Origin: Clostridiaceae bacterium
GTDB lineage: Bacteria; Bacillota; Clostridia; Saccharofermentanales; DTU023
Length of the DNA stretch: 35,207 bases
Assembly: GCA_012838355.1 (NCBI GenBank)
Contig: DUPJ01000061.1
Span: forward strand, 1-35,207
Reading direction: 5' to 3'
Part shown: piece by piece, positions 8,142 to 12,272 of the stretch
Layout of the letters: each line of letters opens with the position of its first letter
Position numbering within the stretch: position 1 is the first letter of the stretch
The notes under the pieces: generated by a model
Told to the model about the DNA's origin: nothing
The model's input: only the letters and a program-made list of their open reading frames with translations
Database searches by the model: none
Program-made: the position numbers and the translations under genes

Positions 8142-9842
8142 GCGGTGCAGCCATTCGAACAAGACCCGCCAGTCGCGTCCGAACGGGTCGGTGACGGACG
8201 AAAAATCACTCAGGTCACCGCCCCAAACGCCGCGATGAAGATTCAGGTAGGCATATGATGCGCTGTCCAGAGGCAAAACAACCGCACTGCGCTGCAGCGC
8301 GAGTGCAAGGTCGTGTTTGGCTTCGCGAACGGTTTCTGCATTTTCATAAAGCTTGCTGCTTGCTTCATGCAGGCTGACAATCGTGTCTTCTTCTCTGGTG
8401 TCAATCAGGCGGATCAGATCCCCGACTCTGGCTTCGATGGCGGCGGGGCGGTCGTCCGCCACTGAAACATCGAAGAGAAGATCAAAGTCGAGCGCCTGCC
8501 TGCGCCGCAGATATTCGTTTTCATCGACGGGAACCAGCTTCACAGGAAAACCGTTGGCGCCGACTTCAGATTGAAACTGTTCGAGCAGCGGCTTGTACAG
8601 TGAACGATTCGGGTAGACAAGCTCGAGGGCGGTTTTGCCCGCGTTCAGAATGTAATACCCCTGGCTGTCACTTTGCATGCCGGCCGCACGCATCGCCCGA
8701 GCTGCTTCGCTCGTCGCATAATGCGGTTCGGACTCACTGAACCGTGACTGGTCGAGCTCCGCTGCCGCCTGATTGGAGCCGAAATACTGATAACTGATAA
8801 AAGAATTCTTATTCGTCACTTCAAGCCGGGCTGCCACAACGACACGGCGATATGATCTTGCCAAAGACCAGCGAACGGCTGGCGTCTGAAGTGATTCCCG
8901 GCTGCTGTTCAGCCAGAGCGAGTACAGTGCTTCCTCGCCGGCTTCTGATGAGATCGTGTCCGCTTTGAAAAAGCGTCCGTACCAGATATCGGCCTGCCCT
9001 GTCTCCACAGCCCGGCGGCGCGATGCGTCGTCACCGTAGCGCGGGATCTCCACATGCGCAGGATACGGATCCGTTTCGCGGACGCGTGTGAGGTGCACGG
9101 AGAAGTCATCGCTGGCACTGAGACGGTAGGGACCGCTCCCGATCAGATTCAAGTCCGCAAGATTGTCTGTTTCGGCAGTGGCCGACTGCTGTTCCAGCGA
9201 GAAGAAGATATGCCGCGGCAGCATATAAAGACGGCTCATCGTATAAACAATCCGATCCGTCGGTGTCGTTTCGGGGAATGAGACAATCAGGTGCGATTCG
9301 TCCTCGACGGTCAGTGTCATGGTTTCGAGAAGCGGATCGACCTGAAGACGCTGCCAGCGTTCCAGGGAGTAAATGACATCAGCCAGCGTCACCGGTGTTC
9401 CGTCGTGCCACGTTTTTGTGTCGTCTGCCGTGATATGCAAGACGGAGCCGTCAAATCGAAGCGAACCGGCAAAAACGGGGATGTAACTTTGGCGATCCGG
9501 ATCAGCGGCCAGAAGCGGTTCATAGATGAGATTGAGCGGTGAGCTTTGACTGAAAATTCCATTGAGCGGTGAGATCCAGCCGTCAAACAGCCGGTCCGTC
9601 GCAATAATCAGTGTTTCATCACGGGGCGGCCTCGTGCCGATTACGTTCCACACTTCGGTCGGCTTTTCCGCCTTCGTCCACACCGGCAGATCCGGGCCGG
9701 GCGCCGCAGTATCCTCACTCAGTCCATCATGAGGGACACAGGACGCAAGCATGAGCAAAACGAGCAGCAGGCTCAGAAATGAATACGTCTTTTTGTGAGT
9801 TGCTTTTGCCAAAATCCGCTCCCTTGCAATCGCTGCTTTCAT
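8118..9842 (-). CDS. Extracellular solute-binding protein family 5 (peptide/oligopeptide-type), lipoprotein
   Basis: Lipobox LMLASC; LIYEPLLAADPD…TWHDGTPVTLADVIYSLERW typical of SBP_bac_5. Confidence 0.85.
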   Translation of the reverse strand: MKAAIARERILAKATHKKTYSFLSLLLVLLMLASCVPHDGLSEDTAAPGPDLPVWTKAEKPTEVWNVIGTRPPRDETLIIATDRLFDGWISPLNGIFSQSSPLNLIYEPLLAADPDRQSYIPVFAGSLRFDGSVLHITADDTKTWHDGTPVTLADVIYSLERWQRLQVDPLLETMTLTVEDESHLIVSFPETTPTDRIVYTMSRLYMLPRHIFFSLEQQSATAETDNLADLNLIGSGPYRLSASDDFSVHLTRVRETDPYPAHVEIPRYGDDASRRRAVETGQADIWYGRFFKADTISSEAGEEALYSLWLNSSRESLQTPAVRWSLARSYRRVVVAARLEVTNKNSFISYQYFGSNQAAAELDQSRFSESEPHYATSEAARAMRAAGMQSDSQGYYILNAGKTALELVYPNRSLYKPLLEQFQSEVGANGFPVKLVPVDENEYLRRRQALDFDLLFDVSVADDRPAAIEARVGDLIRLIDTREEDTIVSLHEASSKLYENAETVREAKHDLALALQRSAVVLPLDSASYAYLNLHRGVWGGDLSDFSSVTDPFGRDWRVLFEWLHRSQSQGVD

Positions 9843-9874
9843 TGTATCACTGCCTTTTTCTGAAACCGTTTGAT

Positions 9875-10504
9875 ATGATGAAAAAAATGAAACGGACGCA
9901 TCGCCGAAAGCCTATGTTTTATGTCATCATCATCTTTCTTGTCATTACGCTTGGTCTGGTCGCCCTCGACCGGTTGGTCGCCACTGTCGGACACCGGCGC
10001 ATCATCGAGCCGTTTCAGGCGGCAGAGGCCGATGCCATCATTGTCCCCGGTGCCAAAATCAATCCGGACGGATCGCCGACCGATATGCTGAAGGATCGTC
10101 TTGATGCTGCGATTGCCCTCTATGCGAGCAAACGGGCCCCGCTTATTCTTGTCTCCGGTGACGGGCGCGACAGTGCGCTGAATGAAACGGCCTCGATGGC
10201 CGCTTACCTGAAAACGGCAGGCATTCCGGCGGCCGCCATCGTCATTGATCCGGAAGGATACGATACGTTTCAGACGGTATTGCGATCGAAGGATGCGTAC
10301 GCGATCAGGTCATCGATCATCGTTACGCAGACATTCCACCTGGAACGCGCCCTGTTTATCGCCAATGCTCTGGATTCTGACATGATGGGCGTTGCTTCGG
10401 ATTTCAGAGACTACGCGTCGATGCCCCTGATGCGCCTGCGCGAGGTGGCTGCCAGAGTCAAGGCACTTTATGAGTGTGCCGTGTTCGGCTTGTCCCGTTC
10501 CTGA
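9875..10504 (+). CDS. YdcF/SanA-like DUF218 family membrane-anchored protein
   Basis: N-terminal TM; ADAIIVPGAKINPDG…LILVSGDGRD…VTQTFHLERALFIA; start could be 9875, 9878 or 9887. Confidence 0.85.
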   Translation: MMKKMKRTHRRKPMFYVIIIFLVITLGLVALDRLVATVGHRRIIEPFQAAEADAIIVPGAKINPDGSPTDMLKDRLDAAIALYASKRAPLILVSGDGRDSALNETASMAAYLKTAGIPAAAIVIDPEGYDTFQTVLRSKDAYAIRSSIIVTQTFHLERALFIANALDSDMMGVASDFRDYASMPLMRLREVAARVKALYECAVFGLSRS

Positions 10505-11538
10505 GACGAATGCGGTTTTTCGACGCGCAGCGCACGGACGTTCGTTGCCAAAACGTTGATTGCCGTGAATTGCTCCACCTTTTCCGCCACCTCCAGCTGA
10601 CACGCCATCAGCACTTCCTGGGCATTAAAACCGAGAAATATGGACAGATCAAGATCGAGCACGATGCCGTACTTTTCCATTTTGATGCCGTGCCGCAGCA
10701 GTTTGGCAACGCCCGGAACCGACTGAAGAATAATCTTGATCAGCTTGGCGAGTGCCTCGTCCGACATGGAGTAACTTCCCAGTGTGGAGAAGGTCGGCCG
10801 TACGATCGTACGGTCGGTATCGGCAGGATAGGGCGCGGTGGTTTCAAAGCGCCGCCTCAGTTTCTGCAGCGGTTCGGCAAAATAACCGGAAAACTCGTGC
10901 TTGATTTCCATACTGGGCACCGGAATGGCATGCCGGCCTTCGGTCAGACGCGTCTGCTTTGCCTCCGCCCGTTCTGCTTCAGATGTCACATCCTCAATGC
11001 GAATCAAAATGGTTGGCGGATTGAGCCAGAGCTGCCGGCAGATCCGTAGCAGCATTTCATGTGACGTTCCGACGATCATCAGTGCCGCCGGACGGTGCTC
11101 GATCAGTGCACGCCGCATCGAAGTCGCCCGGGACTCGTCGAGAAAGATGGCTTGCCGGACCGAATCCATTTTTGTTTTGGCGCGCTTGGCTGATGATCCG
11201 GCAATGATGCTGCTGCCATGAATGAGAAGGCCGTCATCGATCAGGTACTGGATGTTGTATTTTCGTGCCACACTGATCGCCCGGGTGCTCTTGCCGGTTC
11301 CGGAGGCACCGACAAACGCGATCACGGCAATCCGCGAGAGAACGTCACGGATTTCTGAGTGCGTGGCCTCGCCGATCGCGACACTGCGTTCCTGAACCTG
11401 TGTCTTCACGACCTCGGCAAATTTTCCGAACGGATTAAAGCCGCCTTCGTCCTGGTTCGGCCAGCGATTTACCGCTGGATGGTCACCGCCACGGCGAAAG
11501 CCCGATTTTCGTTTTCGTCTTCGGCCAAACAGCGGCAT
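10468..11538 (-). CDS. P-loop NTPase domain protein with C-terminal Asp23/Gls24-like domain
   Basis: Walker A GASGTGKST near residue 80; C-terminus IKIILQSVPGVAKLLRHGIKMEKYGIVLDLDLSIFLGFNAQEVLMACQLEVAEKVEQFTAINVLATNVRALRV resembles Asp23/Gls24 repeats. Confidence 0.7.
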   Translation of the reverse strand: MPLFGRRRKRKSGFRRGGDHPAVNRWPNQDEGGFNPFGKFAEVVKTQVQERSVAIGEATHSEIRDVLSRIAVIAFVGASGTGKSTRAISVARKYNIQYLIDDGLLIHGSSIIAGSSAKRAKTKMDSVRQAIFLDESRATSMRRALIEHRPAALMIVGTSHEMLLRICRQLWLNPPTILIRIEDVTSEAERAEAKQTRLTEGRHAIPVPSMEIKHEFSGYFAEPLQKLRRRFETTAPYPADTDRTIVRPTFSTLGSYSMSDEALAKLIKIILQSVPGVAKLLRHGIKMEKYGIVLDLDLSIFLGFNAQEVLMACQLEVAEKVEQFTAINVLATNVRALRVEKPHSSQERDKPNTAHS

Positions 11539-11543
11539 TGCGG

Positions 11544-12272
11544 CTATGCTTCTTCCCAGTTGTCAAAAACGTCCTGGACATCATCGTGCGCATTCAGGGC
11601 ATCGCGCAGCTTCTCCATATCCAGGCGCATCGTCTCGTCATCAAGACGTACTGTCGTGATGGGAACCGGTCCCAGGCTGGCGTCTGCGAAGCGGTAACCG
11701 CTTGATTCCAGCTGATCGCGGACCGTTTCATAATCATCCGGCGCCGTCGTTATCTCGATCATTTCCTCGTCACTCACGATATCGTCTGCACCGGCTTCGA
11801 GTGCAGCCATCATCACAGCCTCTTCGTCATCATATTCTTCCCTGTCAAGAATGAGGCTGCCCCTGGTTTCGAACTGAAAGGCAACGCTGCCTTTGGTGCC
11901 CAGATTGCCGCCGTATTTGTCGAAGTAATGACGGACGTCGCCGGCAGTGCGATTACGGTTATCGGTCAGTGCCCGAACCATAACGGCAACGCCGCCGGGC
12001 CCGTATCCTTCATAAACGGCTTCTTCAAAATTATCGCCCTCGCCCGCGCCGGCCGCCTTGGCGATGGAGCGCGAAATATTGTCATTCGGCATATTGCTTG
12101 CTTTTGCTCTGGCAATGACGTCACGCAGCGTCCGGTTCGACATCGGGTCGGCACCGCCGTGCCGGACGGCCAGCGCGATTTCTCTGCCGAGCTTCGTGAA
12201 AATCTGCGCTCTTTCTGCATCGACGGCGCCTTTGCGCCGCTTGATATTGCTCCATTTTGAATGACCTGACAT
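11544..12272 (-). CDS. yebC: YebC/PmpR family transcriptional/translational regulator
   Basis: MSGHSKWSNIKRRKGAVDAERAQIFTKLGREI… canonical YebC N-terminus. Confidence 0.95.
   Translation of the reverse strand: MSGHSKWSNIKRRKGAVDAERAQIFTKLGREIALAVRHGGADPMSNRTLRDVIARAKASNMPNDNISRSIAKAAGAGEGDNFEEAVYEGYGPGGVAVMVRALTDNRNRTAGDVRHYFDKYGGNLGTKGSVAFQFETRGSLILDREEYDDEEAVMMAALEAGADDIVSDEEMIEITTAPDDYETVRDQLESSGYRFADASLGPVPITTVRLDDETMRLDMEKLRDALNAHDDVQDVFDNWEEA

Follow-up and report, generated by a model that had tools for sequence, protein, structure and literature searches.

Locus and reading frame

The stretch of DNA analysed here (the window, 35,207 nucleotides) encodes on its minus strand a protein of 356 amino acids, in which a P-loop domain is followed by an Asp23 domain. 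The first-pass annotation had located this gene at positions 10468-11538; the coordinates hold, and a check of ORF and translation assigns the gene to the minus strand, which is open, whereas the plus-strand translation of the same positions runs into stops. The spacing of 5 bp to yebC, likewise proposed there, is borne out, as the ORF begins at 11538 and yebC ends at 11544. At its 3' end, the gene overlaps by 37 bp with a convergent DUF218 (YdcF/SanA-like) gene at positions 9779-10504 of the plus strand; DUF218 is the convergent neighbour at 17 order-level loci. The features are as follows, 50/50 referring to the class-level set of sequences described below.

10468-11538, minus strand: gene of the P-loop/Asp23 two-domain protein; single ORF, ATG start, 356 amino acids
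11544-12272, minus strand: yebC (TACO1/YebC), co-directional upstream neighbour; PF01709, E 5e-55
11341-11538, minus strand: N-terminal extension, amino acids 1-66; found only in order-level members
10939-11340, minus strand: P-loop NTPase/kinase-like domain, amino acids 67-200; weak profile matches, model pLDDT mostly >90
11284-11310, minus strand: Walker A motif GASGTGKST, amino acids 77-85; G77, S79, G80, G82, K83 and S84 identical in 50/50
11230-11238, minus strand: DDG motif closing strand 2, amino acids 101-103; D101 and D102 identical in 50/50 and 35/35; candidate metal or substrate residues
11062-11070, minus strand: GTS motif after strand 3, amino acids 157-159; T158 and S159 identical in 50/50, G157 in 49/50
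10885-10950, minus strand: signature R197...G(K/R)HxIPVPxxEIKxxFSG, amino acids 197-218; R197, G201, H203, P206, P208, F216 and G218 identical in 50/50; candidate LID/active-site segment
10786-10803, minus strand: interdomain linker VRPTFS, amino acids 246-251; R247, P248 and S251 identical in 50/50
10519-10785, minus strand: Asp23 domain, approximately amino acids 252-340, alpha-beta-beta-alpha-beta; PF03780, hhalign, AlphaFold model

The P-loop half and the Asp23 half form one open frame in all family members, and homology extends along the length of the protein in both family alignments (A1 and A2). Some genomes contain open frames of 489-557 amino acids, the extra domains of which look like run-on frames around a core of normal length and were dismissed.

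The N-terminal extension of 60-70 amino acids is a feature of the window's order; members from outside that order comprise about 270-290 amino acids and start approximately 7 residues before the P-loop. In the model, the extension is of low confidence up to about residue 35 and helical at residues 36-57, and at the family level it carries the motif FNPFG(R/K)(F/I/L)AxAV. Its hydrophobic moments, calculated as a check for an amphipathic helix, are modest and rarely exceed those of shuffled sequences at p<0.01.

Domain identities and conservation

The reading of the protein as a P-loop domain joined to an Asp23/Gls24-like C-terminus proved correct, as did the C-terminal sequence quoted with it and the Walker A motif GASGTGKST, now placed at amino acids 77-85. 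Within the P-loop fold, the pattern GxSGxGKS is invariant in 50/50 sequences, and the succession of strand 1, loop and helix 1 is predicted with a pLDDT of about 90 or more; confidence in the model is high between strand 1 and the helix following strand 4. The segment from R197 to FSG has low pLDDT values in monomer models, and the interdomain segment is poorly modelled. After strand 3, the acidic Walker B residue is absent, the site reading hhhhGTS in nearly all members; the aspartates D101 and D102 of strand 2 may substitute for it.

The P-loop half gave weak matches to the generic profiles AAA, AAA_25, ABC and AAA_33, as well as to PRK12338 (2-phosphoglycerate-kinase-like) and to adenylate and gluconate kinases. 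The AAA score for the P-loop core is marginal (21.7 bits against a cut-off of 21.2), and all kinase profiles stay far below their curated cut-offs. Since marginal AAA is the sole P-loop family to reach a curated cut-off, the kinase class is not established, and the domain lacks a clear Pfam classification. A sequence search of the PDB with the P-loop half returned no clear relative of solved structure; the lists from the PDB structure search were filled by matches of the Asp23 half, and matches in the viral library were weak.

The Asp23 domain was identified by several routes. On the window protein, PF03780 covers amino acids 282-335 (E 7.6e-6, 26.8 bits), just below the cut-off of 28 bits, while a six-frame search of the genome, in which neighbouring in-frame sequence was included, scored the same domain at 31.3 bits, above the cut-off, and detected two further Asp23 matches. 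Most relatives score above the cut-off, up to 45.3 bits, and all 50 class-wide members match PF03780 at E<=1e-3 (best 3.7e-14). Comparison of the family's C-terminal profile with an alignment of stand-alone YqhY-like Asp23 proteins by hhalign yielded a probability of 98.8 and an E-value of 7.5e-17 over 83 columns, from which it follows that the domain is complete and begins near residue 252; the P-loop half, used as negative control, gave 0.3. Chance resemblance to Asp23 is ruled out by the profile matches in relatives, by hhalign and by the agreement of the 50 members. The AlphaFold model reaches pLDDT values of 91-97 over most of the domain, and its best match among solved structures is the C-terminal domain of the CDF protein MamM, a dimerising domain. 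The NCBIfam profile CDF_MamM is matched by 4/50 family members (best E 2.7e-5), and the AmaP model of the same collection by 28/50, the latter matches probably arising through an Asp23-like part of AmaP.

Conservation was assessed on 50 class-level sequences, 39 of which share only 33-43% identity with the window protein. In addition to the residues given above as 50/50, G114, S116, A117, K118, M162 and G254 are identical throughout; past the linker, no residue of the Asp23 half is identical across the 50 sequences. The P-loop half and the linker, with DDG, SAK, GTS, R...GKHxIPVP...FSG and RPTxS, are thus more highly conserved than the Asp23 half, as would be expected of an active enzyme. The pattern indicates what would be a working nucleotide-dependent protein, which is most likely kinase-like.

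Distribution and gene neighbourhood

The architecture is present in 38/39 relatives. In the class sample, the family profile was matched in 214/291 genomes; 53 of these 214 matches are weak and were counted out as probably ordinary Asp23 or P-loop proteins, and the full family is found in about 161/291 genomes (E < 1e-50, hand count). The phylum sample displays the same two-peaked pattern, with more than 140 full-length rows among the matches listed. The family, usually present in single copy per genome, is conserved in about half of the sampled Clostridia genomes, and the window member is an ordinary one. A rare or unique fusion is excluded by these samples, and the unusual status first attributed to the protein cannot be upheld: it is widespread across Clostridia, mostly in single copy, and RefSeq already carries an automatic Asp23/Gls24 name, WP_158648977.1 of Monoglobus pectinilyticus being designated 'Asp23/Gls24 family envelope stress response protein'. 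The family is therefore already in the databases under a generic Asp23 name and is not specific to the window. No description of the P-loop/Asp23 combination was found in the open-access literature, which does not prove its absence; to the question raised with the initial proposal, whether the architecture is a well-known characterised family, the literature searched offered none such.

In the window's order, yebC is adjacent upstream at 68/80 loci, whereas it is near the gene at 1/39 class-level loci from other orders; a partnership with YebC is nearly restricted to this order and was discarded as a general rule. DUF6062 lies within three genes at 59/80 order-level loci. Among the 39 class-level loci, ogg (19), rex (11), ytxC (11) and DUF6062 (8) occur within the same distance. 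DUF6062 recurs in both orientations and in several lineages, at eight loci noted individually as well as at the 59 order-level loci. It is not supported as an obligate partner; the genome of the window gave no match to it in a search whose controls also failed to match. In Monoglobus, rex, the P-loop/Asp23 gene and a DNA glycosylase gene are consecutive, one junction being a gap of 4 bp and the other an overlap. The genes rex and that of 8-oxoguanine glycosylase recur as neighbours in other clostridial families, at six loci noted individually and at others; this neighbourhood, with gene ends sometimes overlapping, suggests an operon there. Across the 80 order-level and 39 class-level loci, there is no universal gene-order partner, and neither the sequence nor the gene context connects the protein directly with envelope stress.

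Elsewhere in the same genome, a frame of 138 codons encodes a stand-alone Asp23 protein of the YqhY type, and an AmaP-like frame of 186 codons comes next (L001, 932-1893; G000:C108). This pair is flanked by efp-like and nusB-like genes, as named from reading the translations, and the locus is standard-looking; a sequence search of the PDB returned no clear relative of this Asp23. Both proteins of the locus are possible docking partners, and additional Asp23-domain proteins are present in all relatives searched.

Possible function and relation to known systems

The reading favoured here, to which we give about an even chance, is that of a nucleotide-dependent, kinase-like P-loop enzyme using its C-terminal Asp23 domain for oligomerisation or docking; activity, kinase chemistry, substrate, partner and location are all putative. 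What the analysis establishes are the domain identities, the conservation, the usual single copy and the phyletic spread. The protein would be soluble and would hold ATP by the Walker A loop, while the invariant residues DD of strand 2, SAK, GTS and R...H...PVP would form the catalytic and LID surface. As judged from Asp23 proteins elsewhere, the Asp23 domain would pair with itself or with stand-alone Asp23/YqhY and AmaP proteins, and through this pairing the enzyme may be recruited to the membrane's inner face or to the machinery of lipid synthesis. In S. aureus, Asp23 polymerises into filaments and is anchored to the membrane through AmaP, and an envelope-stress phenotype is known for it as well (PMC6954212). 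In B. subtilis, YqhY has been connected with acetyl-CoA carboxylase control (PMC5437119), and yqhY, a gene of the Asp23 family, is essential in C. difficile (PMC12548448). An ATP-dependent enzyme with a docking or oligomerising tail is favoured on account of these observations. Against it stand the lack of an established kinase class, of a Walker B acid and of a conserved gene-order partner, the poor model of the interdomain segment, and the position of the gene outside an asp23-amaP operon.

The regulated membrane-stress switch of the first-pass annotation can be made specific as a nucleotide-controlled assembly switch in place of a metabolic enzyme, where ATP binding or hydrolysis by the P-loop domain would govern Asp23 polymerisation at the membrane. 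The polymerisation of Asp23 and its location at the membrane with AmaP (PMC6954212), the weak AAA-type match and the further Asp23-domain proteins in the relatives are in line with it; yet a sensor/arginine-finger module of the AAA+ type was not identified, the signatures GKHxIPVP...FSG and DDG are more like a substrate site, and envelope-stress genes are absent from the gene context. The switch is unlikely. Of similarly low probability, roughly one chance in five, is a kinase of redox or carbon metabolism or of the DNA-damage response, the function of which would be reflected in the proximity of rex and ogg (11/39 and 19/39 class-level loci, some overlapping or near-abutting), with an Asp23 domain that only dimerises, as the MamM-like fold, a dimerisation fold, would allow. 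In the window's order, however, it is yebC and DUF6062 that recur and not rex or ogg, and the recurrence of these neighbours may stem from inherited gene order.

The absence of the acidic Walker B residue from strand 3 would also agree with a degenerate P-loop protein that binds nucleotide only, or not even that, and leaves the function to the Asp23 half. Such degeneration is very improbable in view of the Walker A lysine and serine, invariant in 50/50 sequences, and of the conservation of the P-loop half, which exceeds that of the Asp23 half. Also improbable, if less markedly so, is the far-reaching proposal of a new P-loop kinase family of about half of the Clostridia, the activity of which would be set by Asp23 assembly at the membrane and which would take as its phosphorylation substrate either a lipid precursor or a partner (Asp23 or ACCase). 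If true, a membrane-assembled Asp23 kinase would couple the Asp23/YqhY envelope system to nucleotide state by way of an enzyme. The permanent coupling of Asp23 to an ATP-binding, enzyme-like domain gives a concrete biochemical handle on what Asp23 proteins do, and the clostridial family exposes a P-loop family without clear Pfam class.

Compared with known systems, the window protein shares with P-loop kinases (adenylate and gluconate kinases, PRK12338) the Walker A motif, a strand 2 ending in acidic residues and, late in the domain, an arginine conserved in the LID region. The similarity is confined to some 30-80 residues on either side of and including the P-loop and scores far below the curated cut-offs, and DDGLLI, GTSxxM and GKHxIPVPxxEIK are signatures of the window's family. 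The superposition of the C-terminal domain of MamM on the Asp23 domain covers 83 columns at about 20% identity, with a TM-score of about 0.8 (by target length); the window protein is without the transporter part of a CDF transporter and has a P-loop domain as partner, and this is a resemblance of fold and not membership. Asp23 domains and the C-terminal domains of CDF proteins may be related by fold or by descent. WP_158648977.1 is a member of this two-domain family, with 43.7% identity to the query, which was another family member, but is devoid of the 60-70 amino acid N-terminal extension of the window's order, and its gene lies between rex and the DNA glycosylase gene and not after yebC. 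Asp23 proteins are abundant. On the evidence of both profile and profile-profile comparison, the C-terminal domain truly belongs to the Asp23/Gls24 family (PF03780; YqhY, YloU, Asp23). While classical members are small and stand-alone, the domain here forms the tail of a P-loop protein encoded outside the asp23-amaP operon, and the P-loop/Asp23 protein is a variant of the Asp23 kind.
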